A program made the translations under genes and the position numbers. A DNA stretch of 8,671 nucleotides from the NCBI GenBank assembly GCA_021789095.1, contig JAJYJX010000109.1, positions 1 through 8,671 of the forward strand, in the 5' to 3' direction. Below the pieces are notes generated by a model that saw only the letters and a list, made by a program, of their open reading frames with translations, had not been told where the DNA came from and did no database searches. Source of the DNA: a bacterium (GTDB taxonomy: Bacteria > JAMCPX01). Shown here piece after piece: positions 641-8,597 of the stretch. Each line of letters opens with the position of its first letter. The first letter of the stretch is position 1.

Positions 641-1591
641 TTATCTTATCGCTTTTTGCTTCAGCAGTCTGAACAGGTATCTCCAGCCGAATATGAGAGG
701 AAGCCTGCGGTCCCACTCAGTCAGGTTCAGTTTTTCTCCCGTTGTCCGTTCTATCTTCAGCTCAAGATAACCAACATAATCAGAGAATGTATATATGCTC
801 TTCGGCCACCTATAAACAGCCCTTCTTCTGGATCTTTTGATAAACGTATCGATATAATTTCTGGGATAGCAGGGTCGTACAGTTTTATAGACATCACCGT
901 TTTTTTCTACGTTGCCTCCCGCGATTTCCTGTTCAAGGAAAATACCATAAACCTTCCTGTAAAATGCCTTTTCGCTGTTATACAGGTTTACAATCTTGTC
1001 ATCCGTTTCCGTTCTTACCTCAGCCCTGTAACTCAACCCCAGCAACCGGAGTATGAAGTCATCGAGTGAAAATCTTTCGCCGACCATGTCCGATAGTGCG
1101 AACAGGGTATTAAATCTCATGGCGCTGTAAATGCGGTTCAGAAAAAAAGACAAAAACTTTTCATCCTTTACATACAGGATTCCTATGCGTTTGGCGAGCC
1201 TTCCTGCTATAAAAAGGTCTTTGAGTTTATCGTGTTGCGTCGCACACATCAGTCCGTATTTATCTATAACGCAGTATTTGGACGGCTTGGTGGTTCCATT
1301 TTCATTGATCTTGAGGAAGTAAGAATTAGGCGGTACAATTTTATTCAAAAGCGAGTGAACGTAGGATTTATAAAATGCTGAATACTTGTCGACTATGATA
1401 TAGAAATCGGGGAAGCTTGTCGGTGTAGATACCTCGGGATTCAGCATCGAGCCGTACATGAATATGCACTCAATACCTTTAAAATGCTTTAAAAAATACC
1501 GCAAAAATGGATCTGCTGCTGCTGTTTTGTACGGATAGTAGGTATCATACAGATACTTTGTTATTACATCTTTATAATGTCTGGCATCCAA
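641..1591 (-). CDS. Tam41/Mmp37-like phosphatidate cytidylyltransferase (CDP-diacylglycerol synthase)
   Basis: This is likely a peripheral-membrane nucleotidyltransferase making CDP-diacylglycerol from CTP and phosphatidic acid, the role of mitochondrial Tam41. The 316-residue protein shows the family blocks in order. FMYGS (44-48) is the nucleotidyltransferase GS motif. PDFYIIVD (61-68) includes D62, the probable metal ligand. KYGL (111-114) is followed by DLFIAGRLAKRIGIL (125-139), which matches the Tam41 pattern 'LYVAGRL-KPV-IL'. RFSLDDF...LLGLSYRAEVR (173-193) and a following K-I-V...FYRKVYG (199-216) match its helical domain. The C-terminus (about 250-316) is rich in Arg/Lys and aromatics and may contact the membrane; there is no membrane segment or signal peptide. 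The start is TTG at 1591: in-frame stops lie just upstream, AGAGG is 12 bases upstream, and the next in-frame ATG would cut into the GS motif. Ordinary bacteria use the unrelated membrane enzyme CdsA, so the cellular role here is uncertain. The family call is fairly firm and the reaction is inferred. Confidence 0.8.
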   Translation of the reverse strand: MDARHYKDVITKYLYDTYYPYKTAAADPFLRYFLKHFKGIECIFMYGSMLNPEVSTPTSFPDFYIIVDKYSAFYKSYVHSLLNKIVPPNSYFLKINENGTTKPSKYCVIDKYGLMCATQHDKLKDLFIAGRLAKRIGILYVKDEKFLSFFLNRIYSAMRFNTLFALSDMVGERFSLDDFILRLLGLSYRAEVRTETDDKIVNLYNSEKAFYRKVYGIFLEQEIAGGNVEKNGDVYKTVRPCYPRNYIDTFIKRSRRRAVYRWPKSIYTFSDYVGYLELKIERTTGEKLNLTEWDRRLPLIFGWRYLFRLLKQKAIR

Positions 1592-1615
1592 TTCAGATTA
1601 TTACCTCTGTTTATC

Positions 1616-2657: not shown

Positions 2658-4016
2658 TTATTCCACTGCTCCTATGGCCTTTTCAATGACCGCCGCTATC
2701 TCTGATGCATACGTTTGTATGAGTCTTTGATCCTGTCCCTCTATCATCACCCTTGCAAGCGGTTCGGTACCCGAGTATCTTACAAATACCCTGCCCGTGT
2801 CCTTCAGCTTATCAGATACCAGCTGTATCATCTTTTCTACCCCGGGTATGCTTGAGAAAGGCATTTTCTTTGACACCCTGACGTTCACAATGATCTGTGG
2901 ATACCGTTTCATCATGCCTGCAAGCTCAGATAACTTTTTACCTGAAAGCACCATAAGTGCGAGCACCTGCAATGCAGTAATAATACCATCTCCTGTTGTA
3001 GTGTACTCGATGAATATCACATGCCCGGACTGTTCTCCGCCGAGCACGTATCCTTCTTTTATCATGCTCTCAAGTACATATCTGTCACCCACATTTGCCC
3101 TGATAAGCTTTATGCCTTCCCTTTTCAGGGCAAGCTCTAAACCTATATTGCTCATAACAGTTGCCACAACGCCGTTACCCTTAAGCTTTCCGTTATTTTT
3201 CATGTGTACGGCGCTCATGGCAAGGATAGCGTCGCCATCAACAATGTTTCCTTTTTCATCGCACATAATCACCCTGTCGCCATCTCCGTCAAAAGCAATC
3301 CCGATGTCCGCCTTATATTTTTTAAGTCCTTCTGTCATGAATTCAGGGTGCATGGAGCCGCAATTGTGGTTTATGTTTCTGCCGTTTGGCGAGGCAGAAG
3401 TAACGGCAATAACCGCACCCAGTTCCTGAAACACCGCAGGCGCAATTTTGTATGTTGCGCCGTTTGCACAATCTACAATCATCCTTATGCCCGAGAGCGA
3501 CAGGTTTTTGGGGAAGGTATGTTTTAATGAAACAATATATCTGCCGGCTGCATCTGACAGCCTGTATGCTTTACCTATCCTTTCTTTCGGCAGCGTAGGG
3601 CTTACAGCTTTATCAGAGAGAACGAGCTTTTCTATCTCTGATTCGATCGTGTCACCGAGCTTGTAACCGTCGGGACCGAAAAACTTTATGCCGTTGTCCC
3701 TGTAGGGATTATGCGAGGCGGATATAACTATGCCGACATCGGCCTTGATCTCATTGGTAAGGAATGCGATGCCCGGGGTAGGGAAGGGGCCGGTTAAAAT
3801 AACATCCCCGCCCATTGATGTAATACCTGCAGTCAGCGCCATTTCAAACATGTACCCCGACAGCCGCGTGTCTTTGCCTATAACAAATTTATGGTGCGGC
3901 TTGCCGTTTGAAAGGAGGGCACTCGCGGCTTTGCCCAGTTTTAAAACGGTCTCTACAGTCATGGGCTCCTTGTTGGCGATCCCTCTGACCCCGTCTGTTC
4001 CAAAAAGTCTGTTCAT
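2658..4016 (-). CDS. glmM: Phosphoglucosamine mutase GlmM
   Basis: The enzyme converts glucosamine-6-phosphate to glucosamine-1-phosphate, the cytosolic step before UDP-N-acetylglucosamine for peptidoglycan and LPS. At 452 residues it has normal family length. It opens with FGTDGVRG (5-12). The catalytic phosphoserine is S101 in SASHNP (99-104), the metal loop is DGDGDR (243-248), the sugar-binding loop is GEQSGH (327-332), and the phosphate-binding loop is RYSGTEP (413-419). All key residues are intact. Its ATG overlaps the cdaR stop as ATGA, and GGTGAGG lies five bases upstream inside cdaR, so translation is probably coupled. In Firmicutes, GlmM binds and inhibits the cyclic di-AMP synthase CdaA; the shared operon makes a similar link plausible here but unproven. 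It is the last gene of the operon and ends 5 bases from the opposing SDR gene, with no terminator hairpin in between. Confidence 0.97.
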   Translation of the reverse strand: MNRLFGTDGVRGIANKEPMTVETVLKLGKAASALLSNGKPHHKFVIGKDTRLSGYMFEMALTAGITSMGGDVILTGPFPTPGIAFLTNEIKADVGIVISASHNPYRDNGIKFFGPDGYKLGDTIESEIEKLVLSDKAVSPTLPKERIGKAYRLSDAAGRYIVSLKHTFPKNLSLSGIRMIVDCANGATYKIAPAVFQELGAVIAVTSASPNGRNINHNCGSMHPEFMTEGLKKYKADIGIAFDGDGDRVIMCDEKGNIVDGDAILAMSAVHMKNNGKLKGNGVVATVMSNIGLELALKREGIKLIRANVGDRYVLESMIKEGYVLGGEQSGHVIFIEYTTTGDGIITALQVLALMVLSGKKLSELAGMMKRYPQIIVNVRVSKKMPFSSIPGVEKMIQLVSDKLKDTGRVFVRYSGTEPLARVMIEGQDQRLIQTYASEIAAVIEKAIGAVE

Positions 4017-4666
4017 GAGTGCCTCACCTTGAATATTACAACAACAGCCTGCGGCTGTACAGTTACCATTTTATAGTCCGATATTGATAAAGGAACCATA
4101 AGTGAGATGTCATTTCTGAATTTACTTATATCCACGGGAATTGTCATAACAGCGTTTATGTTACTTATGATTGTAGATGGACCTATCACCGTTACTTTGT
4201 CCGGTTCCGTTACAATACCTTTGAAAGTGCTGTTTTCAGGCGGGTTGCCTACTATTGAAACACCGACATCCACAACCCTGCTTACCAACCTGTCGAGAGA
4301 CAGAGTTATGCTGCTGGGATAGATGGTTTCGATTTTTATCCGGTTTGGTATGTCAAACTCGGATGGCGAAATATTAAATATGTAATTACCGATGCCTGTT
4401 TTTGTAAGGTTTACGTTATATACCGGCTTGCTGTTTGCATAGTTGAATATTGTTGATGAAGGACCGGAAATGGTAAGCTCTATGTACTGCGGCACGTTGT
4501 TTATAATGACCTCACCTTCAGATAAGTTATTGATCACCACCGGCACCTTTAAGGTGACCTCCGATGTTTTTTCACCCTGGGCAAAGAACCACAGGAATAC
4601 AGCGATAAGCACGGCGAGTATCTTGTACACGAAGTTATCGGTTATAAGTTTCAAAAATCTTCTCAT
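4013..4666 (-). CDS. cdaR: YbbR-domain regulator of cyclic di-AMP synthase (CdaR-like)
   Basis: This is a membrane-anchored protein, expected to modulate CdaA from the outer face of the inner membrane. Of its 217 residues, 1-12 are basic and cytosolic, 13-29 form one membrane helix (uncleaved anchor), and the rest is extracytoplasmic. The exported part holds two YbbR-type beta repeats, roughly 35-125 and 131-213. They are marked by the similar segments ISGPSSTI (66-73) and VIGPSTII (160-167). Firmicute CdaR often has three or four repeats, so this is a short form. Its start overlaps the cdaA stop as ATGA and its stop overlaps the glmM start as ATGA. Position between cdaA and glmM supports the name; regulation of CdaA is known in Firmicutes and inferred here. 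Confidence 0.88.
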   Translation of the reverse strand: MRRFLKLITDNFVYKILAVLIAVFLWFFAQGEKTSEVTLKVPVVINNLSEGEVIINNVPQYIELTISGPSSTIFNYANSKPVYNVNLTKTGIGNYIFNISPSEFDIPNRIKIETIYPSSITLSLDRLVSRVVDVGVSIVGNPPENSTFKGIVTEPDKVTVIGPSTIISNINAVMTIPVDISKFRNDISLMVPLSISDYKMVTVQPQAVVVIFKVRHS

Positions 4667-5421
4667 GATGACACACCCAAAAGTTTTGACAACTCCGGCT
4701 TGATTATCTCGGGAGGATCAAATATGGTTATATCCTTATCGACCACTATGGATGCCTTGCCTGTTTCCTCTGATACAATGACGATCAGCGCATCCGTTTC
4801 TGCGGAAAGGCCAAATGCCGCCTTGTGTCTTGTTCCATACGTTGGATGATACTGTATATCCTGGGACAAGGGAAGCATGCATCCCGCGGCTATTATCCTC
4901 TTTCCCTTTATAACAACAGCACCGTCGTGCAACGGTGTGTGTGTGTTGAATATCGTCAGAAGCAGTTCTTTTGTCACAACAGCATCGATAATGCGGCCTG
5001 TATCAATTACCTCTTTTACGCCTATATTTCTTTCAAAGACTATAAGTGCGCCGGTTCTTGTTTTCGCCAGCTCTGTTACAGCCTCTGTAACCTGCTTAAT
5101 GCCTTCTTTTACCTCGTTTGTCTGGAAATTGGCCCTGCCAAAGTATCCCTTGCCCACGTATGCTAAAGCGCGCTTTAAGTCCTGCTGAAACACTATTATA
5201 ATAATAAGCACTATAGAACTGATGAAGTTGTTCAAAAGCCAGTGCAGGGCCGTAAGATTGAAAACATTTGATAGTATATAGGCGGCAAAGATAATAAAAA
5301 TACCAACAAGCACCTGTGCCGCTTTTGAGCCTTTCAGCATAAGCAGGAGCCTGTATATGAGATAGCTGACTATTGCTATGTCAACAGCGTTCTTTATAAT
5401 ACTGTAAGTAAAAGTATGCAT
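4663..5421 (-). CDS. cdaA: Diadenylate cyclase CdaA (DacA), cyclic di-AMP synthase
   Basis: This integral inner-membrane enzyme joins two ATP molecules into cyclic di-AMP. At 252 residues it is slightly short of the usual 270 or so. Three membrane helices lie near 11-29, 36-54 and 66-80. A linker precedes the cytosolic DAC domain (about 100-235). The catalytic DGA motif is at 166-168 after LH. The triphosphate-binding motif, usually RHR, reads RHK at 198-200 within YGTRHKAAFG, a conservative change. It starts in a TAATG overlap with the folP stop with only a weak GGA upstream, so it probably depends on ribosomes finishing folP. The next gene is cdaR. Cyclic di-AMP generally governs potassium and osmolyte balance and wall homeostasis; the targets here are not visible in the window. 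Confidence 0.94.
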   Translation of the reverse strand: MHTFTYSIIKNAVDIAIVSYLIYRLLLMLKGSKAAQVLVGIFIIFAAYILSNVFNLTALHWLLNNFISSIVLIIIIVFQQDLKRALAYVGKGYFGRANFQTNEVKEGIKQVTEAVTELAKTRTGALIVFERNIGVKEVIDTGRIIDAVVTKELLLTIFNTHTPLHDGAVVIKGKRIIAAGCMLPLSQDIQYHPTYGTRHKAAFGLSAETDALIVIVSEETGKASIVVDKDITIFDPPEIIKPELSKLLGVSS

Positions 5422-6620
5422 TATGCGTCCATTATGTGCTTTGTCATCAGCAAAGCCTGTTTTGTTTCTTTTACATCATGAACCCTTATAATATCAACTC
5501 CGTGTGCCGCTGCCCATGCAGCAGTAGCCACAGATCCATACATGCGCTGTCCCGTTTCGGTGTTTGTTAGTTTTCCTATAAAGGACTTTCTTGAAGTGCC
5601 AATAAGCACGGGAAGCCCGAGTAATTTGAATGCCCTTACGTGTTTCAATATTAATAGATTGTGTTTTACTGCTTTACCAAACCCTATACCGGGATCAATA
5701 ATAATGCGGTCTTTATCAATACCAGCCTTTATTGCATGCAGTACCCGCTGTTCGAGAAATGATAAAATCTCGGCAATGACATCGCTGTACTGTGGGGCAA
5801 CCTGCATTGATTGGGGAGTACCTTTCATGTGCATCAGCACAATGGCAGCCCTATACTTTCTTACAACCTCCTGCATGCCTTTATCAAACGTCATCGCACT
5901 TACGTCGTTAACTATGTCGGCGCCGTTATCAAGGGCTGCGGCCGCAACATCTGATTTCATTGTATCTATTGAAATGGGTATTTTTATCTTTTCCCTCAGC
6001 CGTTGTATAACAGGAATTACACGCCTTTTCTCCTCTTCCGCATCCACGGGTCCGCTGCCCGGTCTTGTTGATTCACCACCTACATCTATTATATCAGCAC
6101 CGTGTTCGCAGAGCTCAAGGCCGTGTTCAACAGCAGCTTCTGTGGAAAGAAATCTGCCACCGTCTGAGAATGAGTCAGGGGTCACATTGAGAATGCCCAT
6201 AAGTCTCGGACCATCCTCGAGGTTAATGCTGGCATCCCTGTATCTGAGGGTTGAGCGTGTATTGAAAAGATTTTTTATGGCTGATTCCAGTTCATCCGCC
6301 ACATCGGACAATCCGAACTGCTGCGACTTTATCTTTTGTGCAATGATCTCGATCTGCCTGTATGTGCCCATTAAGAGAGCATCTGCTATAATATCCGGAT
6401 CCTTTATAACGCTCCACGCTGTTGCGAGTTCGGCACCTGCTGCCAGTGCCTCCTGTTTTAATATATTTGCGGCAGGTGAGGATAGGTCCTTGATTCTCAG
6501 CGTGTAGAATACGGATTTCTTATCCATAACCTCTATGCCGTCAGGGTGTACTGCTATTGATTTAAAATACGAGACAACTTCCCTATCGGATACAGGGTTT
6601 AAAAGATATACCTTTTTCAT
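5421..6620 (-). CDS. folP: Dihydropteroate synthase FolP with N-terminal extension
   Basis: This cytosolic folate enzyme, the sulfonamide target, joins p-aminobenzoate to the hydroxymethyl-dihydropterin diphosphate. The 399-residue protein is far longer than the usual 270-280. The catalytic TIM barrel occupies about 138-399 with all signatures: ILNVTPDSFSDGG (143-155), GGESTRPG (181-188), SIDT (217-220), NDVSA (238-242), MHMKGTPQS (263-271), DPGIGFGK (309-316), GTSRKSFIG (341-349) and RVHD (379-382). Residues 1-137 form an extra domain with ANILKQE (51-57) and IKSQQFGL (97-104). From memory, similar extensions occur in FolP of some anaerobic and deltaproteobacterial lineages, and their function is unknown to me. 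The ATG at 6620 was chosen because it follows the leader and begins the recognisable domain. A TTG at 6659 would add 13 residues, but its AGGGGA site is only two bases away. No strong ribosome site precedes the ATG, so the start is less certain than the gene. Confidence 0.93.
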   Translation of the reverse strand: MKKVYLLNPVSDREVVSYFKSIAVHPDGIEVMDKKSVFYTLRIKDLSSPAANILKQEALAAGAELATAWSVIKDPDIIADALLMGTYRQIEIIAQKIKSQQFGLSDVADELESAIKNLFNTRSTLRYRDASINLEDGPRLMGILNVTPDSFSDGGRFLSTEAAVEHGLELCEHGADIIDVGGESTRPGSGPVDAEEEKRRVIPVIQRLREKIKIPISIDTMKSDVAAAALDNGADIVNDVSAMTFDKGMQEVVRKYRAAIVLMHMKGTPQSMQVAPQYSDVIAEILSFLEQRVLHAIKAGIDKDRIIIDPGIGFGKAVKHNLLILKHVRAFKLLGLPVLIGTSRKSFIGKLTNTETGQRMYGSVATAAWAAAHGVDIIRVHDVKETKQALLMTKHIMDA

Positions 6621-6638
6621 ATTATTGCAAAGCTTGCT

Positions 6639-6693
6639 TAACCCAAAAAATGCACACAAATTCCCCTATTTTTCAAATGCATTTTTGGGGTTA
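6639..6693 (-). promoter_or_regulatory. Large inverted repeat in the ftsH-folP spacer (folP leader)
   Basis: Two 16-base arms, 6639-6654 and 6678-6693, are inverted copies with one mismatch (6645/6687), around a 23-base loop. Each arm has a run of C/G, a run of A/T and the end TGCA. It begins just beyond the ftsH stop (6702-6704) and ends 18 bases before the folP ATG. In minus-strand RNA it would form one long hairpin, with an AGGGGA purine run (6667-6662) exposed in the loop. The T run lies inside the stem and not after it, unlike a simple intrinsic terminator. It could be an attenuator, an RNA-processing signal that separates ftsH from folP expression, or a protein-binding palindrome. Confidence 0.5.
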
Positions 6694-6701
6694 TCGGTTT
6701 G

Positions 6702-8543
6702 TTACTGAGGGTTGACAAGTGCGTCTATCTCGTTGGCATCGAGTATTTCTTTTTCAAGAAGTTTGCTTGCAAACTTATTGAGTATATCAAATTTCTTCTT
6801 GAGTAAGTCCGTAGCGTTATCGTAGCATGTCATGATTATTTTTTTAATCTCTTTGTCTATCTCCACCGCAGTGAGCTGACTGTATTCGTTATGCCTGCCA
6901 ACCTCTTTGCCCAGAAATATGAGCTCTTCTTTTTTGCCGAACGTGATTGGCCCGAGTTTATCGCTCATGCCCCATTCACATATCATCTTTCTTGCAAGCT
7001 CTGTTGCTTTTTCAAGATCGTTGCTTGCACCTGTTGATGAGTCCCCCAGCGCCAGCTGTTCTGCTGCCCGTCCACCCATAAGCACGGTTATTGTTGTAAG
7101 CAGGCTTTCCTTTGATACCGTGTATTTGTCCTCTGTCGGAAGCTGGAGAGTTATACCCAGTGCAAGTCCCCTTGGTATGATTGTAACTTTATGAATGGGA
7201 TCGGCATTGGGGAGTGACTTTGCAACAAGTGCGTGGCCGGCCTCGTGATAAGCAATCAGTTTTTTCTCTTTATCTCCTATGATCATGCTCTTGCGCTCTA
7301 CACCCATGAGTATCTTGTCTTTGGCCTCTTCAAATTCCTGCATTGTTACCTTTTCTTTTGATTTTTTTGCGGCAAGGATTGCTGCCTCATTTGCTATATT
7401 TTCCAGGTCGGCCCCTGTGGCTCCTGGAAGTCCCCTTGATATGACGTTGAGGTCAACGTCTGCATCCAACGGTATCTTTTTCGTATGCACCTTCAGTATC
7501 TCTTCCCTGCCTTTAAGATCGGGTACATGGACAACAACCCTCCGATCGAACCTGCCGGGCCTCAGAAGTGCGGGGTCAAGTATGTCGGGTCTGTTGGTCG
7601 CTGCAATCATTATTACATCTTCATTGGCAATAAATCCGTCCATTTCTACAAGGAGCTGATTCAATGTCTGTTCCCGCTCATCGTGTCCGCCGCCGAGACC
7701 AGCCCCCCTGTACCTTCCCACTGCGTCTATCTCATCTATGAATATGATACACGGTGCGCTCTTTTTTGCCTGCATGAACAGGTCTCTTACCCTTGCAGCA
7801 CCGACACCTACGAACATCTCAACAAAATCAGAACCGCTTATACTGAAAAACGGAACCTTTGCTTCTCCTGCTATTGCTTTTGCAAGCAATGTTTTCCCTG
7901 TTCCAGGTGCGCCAATCAGAAGTACACCTTTCGGAACCCTTCCACCCAGCCTTGTGAACTTCTGAGGGTTTTTCAAGAACTCGATGATCTCCTGCAGTTC
8001 TGATTTGACCTCTTCTATGCCGGCAACATCCTTGAACGTAATGTTCTGCAGCCCCTCATTCATGAGTTTTGCCCTGCTCCTGCCAAAGGACATGGCTTTA
8101 CCCGTACCTGCCTGCATCTGACGCGTAAAAAACACCCACCACAGTACAAAGATTATAGCCAGAGGCACCCATGTTATTAGGATGCTCCTCCATACGGAAT
8201 CCTGTTCCTCTGATTTGGCTGTTATATTAACGTTCTTATCCAGCAGTGTTTTTACAAGGGTAGGGTCCTCGGGTGCATATGTTTCAAAATCTTTATTGTC
8301 TTTCGTTATGCCTGTTATCTGGTGTCCTTTTATAACGACGGATTTGATCTGGTTATTATTAGCCGCCTGAACAAACTCGCTGAAGGTGTAGCTTTTTGCC
8401 TGCTGAGCCGGCGGGTTAATAAATTTTATAAGAACCACGGCTATTACAAATATAACGATCCACATACCGATGTTCTTTAAAAGACCGGCGTATCTGTTAT
8501 TGTTGTTTTGTTTTGGTGCTTTTCTTTCGTTTTTTTCGTCCAT
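6702..8543 (-). CDS. ftsH: ATP-dependent zinc metalloprotease FtsH
   Basis: This hexameric inner-membrane AAA+ protease degrades misfolded membrane proteins and short-lived regulators; in E. coli these include LpxC and sigma-32. The predicted 613 residues are of normal length. Membrane helices near 24-43 and 118-139 flank a periplasmic domain (about 44-117). The AAA module has Walker A GAPGTGKT (211-218), pore loop MFVG (243-246), Walker B IIFIDEID (266-273) and the arginine-finger region RPGRFDRR (328-335). The protease site is HEAGH (433-437), with D509 as the probable third zinc ligand. The start at 8543 has GAGG six bases upstream. In-frame ATGs at 8558 and 8555 and a TTG at 8591 are possible but have poorer sites. 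It lies 54 bases after the end of the probable tilS gene, and the folP leader follows it. Confidence 0.97.
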
Positions 8544-8597
8544 TGGGTACCTCATCATAATAAAAGTAAGCAAATTATTGAAAATAATCAATAGGAA

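Follow-up and report, generated by a model that had tools for sequence, protein, structure and literature searches.

A Tam41-family protein from a bacterial genome with a cdsA fragment: a predicted soluble cytidylyltransferase for lipid phosphates

Phospholipid synthesis branches at CDP-lipid, which bacteria are usually assumed to make by CdsA alone. Among the closest described systems, a Firmicutes Tam41 has been crystallized and its CDP-DAG synthase activity published (Kimura 2022, as cited in PMC11646218). Of the three acidic residues that belong to the fold, Tam41 retains only one (PMC11646218); mutation of D220 in the yeast protein abolishes its activity, and the C-terminal region of S. 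pombe Tam41, which was removed for crystallization, binds the membrane (PMC7018664). Yeast Tam41 has been expressed in laboratory E. coli depleted of CdsA (PMC6362211), where it relieves the accumulation of phosphatidate. In Caulobacter, CpgB is a ceramide kinase (PMC10331486) and CpgC is needed for the conversion of ceramide-1-phosphate to ceramide phosphoglycerate, by a mechanism that was still called unidentified in 2025–2026 (PMC12275187, PMC13228409); an InterPro CDP-DAG synthase-like domain has been noted in CpgC, together with the suggestion of NDP-ceramide (PMC11324152).

The Tam41 family and its bacterial members are already known; what is new here is the branch described below, its partners and its link to CpgC. 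The first-pass annotation of this DNA mentioned structural work on a Firmicutes homologue, which is indeed available (PDB 7ecd; Kimura 2022, as cited), and it rightly called bacterial members little studied, although one bacterial Tam41 has already been published in that work.

The gene, its family and its predicted fold

The gene occupies positions 641..1591 of the window (the whole 8,671-nucleotide stretch of DNA analysed), where an open reading frame had been listed with no strand given; it lies on the minus strand and encodes 316 amino acids plus a stop codon from a TTG start at 1591, as indicated by the ORF call, the PF09139 match and dN/dS. A ribosome-binding-like AGAGG (1604..1608, minus strand), seen directly in the sequence, stands 12 nt upstream of this start. 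Relatives at 58–66% identity in seven sister genomes, together with dN far below dS across sister pairs (0.094 versus 0.822 in the pair L004/L008), mark it as a conserved, real gene. The sister genomes that bear names are metagenome assemblies throughout, one of them named as a Deltaproteobacteria bacterium. A search of the window's own genome (a 2.15 Mb assembly, 92% complete) found this as its sole PF09139 gene.

Around the gene lie a partial xanthine/uracil-type permease gene and a divergent SDR gene, followed by glmM, ybbR, cdaA, folP and ftsH. The latter row (2658–8591, minus strand), whose first three genes overlap by 4 bases, gives this metagenome-assembled genome a c-di-AMP synthase neighbourhood. 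Five genomes of the window's family have the SDR gene (1825–2649), whose product scores above the cut-off for none of the NCBIfam models listed, next to the Tam41 gene; it is divergent in four of them (G000, G001, G004 and G008) and on the same strand in G003.

Assignment to the Tam41 family, as proposed in the first-pass annotation, is borne out both by sequence and by predicted structure. The window protein gives a significant match to PF09139 (Tam41_Mmp37) over residues 89–225, with 33 bits against a curated cut-off of 24, and this model also matches nine of eleven relatives at E up to 0.01. Among solved structures, S. pombe Tam41 was the only match in a single-sequence search (E 2.2e-4), and a profile of the eleven relatives matched S. 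pombe Tam41 6ig2 at E 5.7e-8. The Firmicutes Tam41 was absent from the sequence-profile matches of the window's family at E up to 1 and was found by fold only; the best NCBIfam score for the window protein, 13 bits against a cut-off of 270, was no usable match. In the AlphaFold2 model (mean pLDDT 81.5, pTM 0.83), a nucleotidyltransferase domain and a winged-helix domain are arranged as in solved Tam41. The model aligns with the Firmicutes Tam41 bound to CTP-Mg (7ecd) at Z 20.2 (3.0 Å, 229 residues) and with S. pombe Tam41 (6ig4 and 6ig2) at Z 16.5, so that the comparison with yeast-type Tam41 proposed in the annotation also returns a Tam41 fold, whereas the next-best fold, that of an aminoglycoside nucleotidyltransferase, reaches Z 6.7. 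Identity to proven Tam41 is just 18–19% in the structure alignment, and the part from about residue 260 onwards is modelled at pLDDT of only about 58–71. Judged by these sequence matches and this model, the window protein is a genuine member of the Tam41 family.

The blocks typical of Tam41 lie where they had been reported (YGS at 46–48, PDFYIIVD at 61–68, DLFIAGRL at 125–132, LSYRAEVR at 186–193 and FYRKVYG at 210–216), with the exception of KYG: this had been placed at K111-Y112-G113, whereas alignment puts the KYG of S. pombe Tam41 on K105-Y106-C107 (1271..1279; all motif coordinates are on the minus strand), whose lysine is invariant in 29 aligned relatives. The nucleotidyltransferase GS motif is Y46-G47-S48 (1448..1456), with G and S invariant in the same 29 relatives; it is followed by the invariant acidic residue D62 (1406..1408), identified from the alignment of relatives and the 6ig2 profile, by G130-R131 of the AGR motif (1199..1204), with R again invariant in the 29, and by LSYRAEVR (1013..1036), which aligns with LSYLGDIR of S. 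pombe Tam41 and with the relatives. The elements GS...D, KY, GR and SYxxD/ExR all align with 6ig2 and are invariant or nearly so in the 29 sequences, and G47, S48, D62, P88, K105, R131, Y188, R193, R261 and K279 are identical in 29 of 29 divergent relatives. A single invariant acid after the GS motif agrees with the retention of one acidic residue in Tam41 (PMC11646218); a counterpart of yeast D220 could not be placed with certainty in the window protein.

The C-terminal residues 245–316 (644..859, minus strand), with RWPK at 261–264, form a basic, conserved and presumably membrane-binding part. The basic aromatic C-terminus noted from the sequence at first sight holds up: residues 245–316 carry a net charge of +10, the last helix (298–311) is amphipathic, and the window protein has no transmembrane segment (hydropathy maximum 0.89). 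R257, R261-W262-P263-K264, K279, R282 and G285 are strongly conserved, and the region is shared, more loosely, by far plasmid relatives that stand in the CpgC position. By analogy with S. pombe Tam41, it may dock on the membrane.

Distribution and lipid-gene neighbourhoods

Bacterial relatives are patchy, occurring in 24 of the 386 genomes searched; the PF09139 search across these genomes did not recover the gene of the window, although the search of its own genome did, so that the counts from the wider search are lower bounds. Plasmid-borne relatives are found in Roseomonas, Pseudomonas, Qipengyuania and Diaphorobacter. A viral origin was rejected, there being no relatives among the viral contigs searched.

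A gene for a DAGK-type lipid kinase is directly adjacent to the Tam41-like gene in the sister genome G003, in G022 and in Pseudomonas, Qipengyuania and Roseomonas, stands one gene away in G232, and lies within the same cluster in a Gemmatimonadetes locus and in G201. Such adjacency or near-adjacency is seen in 6 of about 19 lineages; were its rate as high as 2% per lineage, the chance probability would still be only about 1e-6. In the Gemmatimonadetes locus, the Tam41-like gene shares 4 bases with a CDP-alcohol phosphotransferase gene; in G201 the two abut, and the clusters of G232, Roseomonas and Pseudomonas also include such a phosphotransferase gene. In the window, neither a lipid-kinase gene (ceramide-kinase-like genes included) nor a phosphotransferase gene adjoins the Tam41 gene, whose neighbour is the divergent SDR gene; within the window's family, the kinase is adjacent in G003 only, among the genomes examined. 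The window genome does have a kinase gene on another contig (C124), whose product is 47% identical to the kinase abutting Tam41 in G003 and which lies beside a TatC-like gene, also found near the cluster in G003; by sequence, the two kinases are orthologous. The window genome also has three CDP-alcohol phosphotransferases.

Two lineages share a cluster (L077 8357–13842, L047 987–6690) of genes for an alpha-oxoamine synthase, an acetoacetate-decarboxylase-family protein, a lipid kinase, an acyltransferase-like protein, a Tam41-like protein and a CDP-alcohol phosphotransferase, possibly an amino-lipid pathway of a new type.

On the Roseomonas plasmids, the CDP-alcohol phosphotransferase, kinase and Tam41-like genes follow each other in this order, close to a serine palmitoyltransferase gene (613 bits against an NCBIfam cut-off of 500) and an ACP gene. 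The Pseudomonas plasmid has its kinase and Tam41-like genes within a sphingolipid cluster that also includes lptF/G, phosphoesterase, cytidylyltransferase-like, acyl-AMP ligase, epimerase, ACP and serine palmitoyltransferase genes. This arrangement mirrors cpgA-cpgB-cpgC of Caulobacter, the relative standing in the CpgC position. The plasmid proteins in that position, which PF09139 does not detect, are homologous to the window's family over their full length, C-terminus included (hhalign, 99.8% for the Pseudomonas and 99.4% for the Roseomonas protein). Gene order and this homology of the plasmid proteins suggest that CpgC is Tam41-like, the Caulobacter sequence itself lying outside the comparison.

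The Pseudomonas cluster (L123 5743–26098, on plasmid pPNP1 of Pseudomonas sp. JS425) is of the phosphosphingolipid type, with a serine palmitoyltransferase above the NCBIfam cut-off; it has insertion sequences and a class 1 integron close by, which suggests that sphingolipid synthesis can be mobile between bacteria. A DUF2141 gene is found beside or near the CpgC-position genes on three plasmids (L126 5447–5968, L125 5559–5960, L124 9651–10148), and a similar-looking ORF, putatively DUF2141, stands beside the gene in L078 (8603–9100).

Proposed activity, substrates and the place of CdsA

We consider it probable, with some reserve, that the window protein is a soluble, peripheral CTP:lipid-phosphate cytidylyltransferase of the Tam41 family that is additional to CdsA and acts after a lipid kinase. 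The computed features are the Tam41 fold, the GS...D, K, R and SYxxExR residues, the lack of a membrane-spanning segment and the basic amphipathic C-terminus. In the proposed pathway, a DAGK-type lipid kinase, here probably the product of the C124 gene, would make phosphatidate or a similar lipid phosphate; the window protein, docked on the membrane by its C-terminus, would bind CTP between its nucleotidyltransferase and winged-helix domains and transfer CMP to the phosphate of this lipid, yielding CDP-lipid and pyrophosphate, and a CDP-alcohol phosphotransferase would then add the head group. That the protein retains the fold but acts as a nucleotidyltransferase on an unrelated substrate, or is inactive, we find the least credible of the readings considered: its minimal nucleotidyltransferase core does also resemble ANT and MNT proteins (Z 6–7) and its overall identity to Tam41 is low, but the active-site residues are invariant in 29 divergent proteins, the Z score of 20 compares with 6.7 for other folds, and the neighbours are lipid genes.

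The search for cdsA envisaged in the annotation found a fragment of 116 N-terminal residues at a contig end of the window genome, 74% identical to CdsA of G001, and seven of the eight sister genomes have a full-length cdsA match. The idea that CdsA has been replaced in this organism is thereby rejected, and the Tam41-type enzyme appears as an addition to it. Of the options that had been offered, a second cytidylyltransferase, perhaps for a special lipid phosphate, fits better than replacement, because the relatives adjoin lipid-kinase and CDP-alcohol phosphotransferase genes. The window protein itself does not match PF01148 in a search up to E 0.1. It appears unlikely that bulk phospholipids depend chiefly on this protein for CDP-DAG synthesis, with CdsA non-functional or in a secondary role. 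A PF01148 match is lacking in three near-complete carriers (G040, G111 and G185) that nevertheless retain CDP-alcohol phosphotransferases alongside the Tam41-family gene, and replacement of CdsA is possible in these; but they are unrelated to the window's family, in which CdsA is found, and the excess of CdsA-less genomes among carriers (3/12 versus 10/159 others) is borderline (p 0.05).

A CpgC-like activity, in which ceramide-1-phosphate would be converted to CDP-ceramide for a phosphosphingolipid, seems quite improbable for the window protein, even though its relatives occupy the place of CpgC beside a ceramide-kinase-like gene on the Roseomonas plasmids and in the Pseudomonas sphingolipid cluster and share full-length homology with it. 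Spt-type genes (525 bits or more, a class in which two such carriers tested fall below the NCBIfam cut-offs) are present in 9 of the 16 carriers outside the window's family versus 92 of 362 non-carriers (p 0.016), but the search of the window genome found a single alpha-oxoamine synthase gene, bioF (468.6 bits against an NCBIfam cut-off of 426), which overlaps a bioB-like gene. No serine palmitoyltransferase-type gene was found in this 92% complete genome, which makes ceramide an unlikely substrate, and none of the sister genomes has an Spt-type match. Since such genes accompany only some carriers and none in the window's family, the bacterial Tam41 branch probably serves several lipid phosphates; for the window protein, the simplest substrate to assume is phosphatidate.

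Comparison with known systems

If the proposed cytidylyltransferase activity is true, a second, soluble enzyme would form, with a lipid kinase, a separate route to make or recycle lipid head groups. More tentatively, and with somewhat less than even confidence, we propose that bacteria have a broad branch of Tam41-type enzymes that includes CpgC and constitutes a module, coupled to DAGK-type kinases, for activating non-standard lipid phosphates alongside CdsA; its products would be CDP-ceramide in sphingolipid producers and, in the window's lineage, a CDP-lipid derived from phosphatidate made by the kinase or from a related lipid. The interesting part is that the link to Tam41 offers a testable answer for the CpgC step, adding a structural connection and a wide distribution to the CDP-DAG-synthase-like domain and NDP-ceramide of PMC11324152.

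CdsA (PF01148) presumably catalyses the same reaction as the window protein, but is an integral membrane protein unrelated to it in sequence and structure (PMC7018664). The CpgC-position proteins (Caulobacter CC_1161 and those of the Pseudomonas and Roseomonas plasmids) are, like the window's family, paired with a DAGK-type kinase, although, unlike the window gene, they are clustered with serine palmitoyltransferase. Firmicutes Tam41 (7ecd) shares the fold, the CTP-binding core, a bacterial origin and presumed C-terminal membrane docking with the window protein, from which it differs in sequence (18% identity in the structure alignment). The mitochondrial Tam41 of S. pombe and S. cerevisiae (6ig2, 6ig4) has in common with it PF09139, the KY..., AGR and LSYxxDxR motifs and the fold, whereas the window protein is bacterial and has a strongly conserved RWPK region beyond the local Pfam match.
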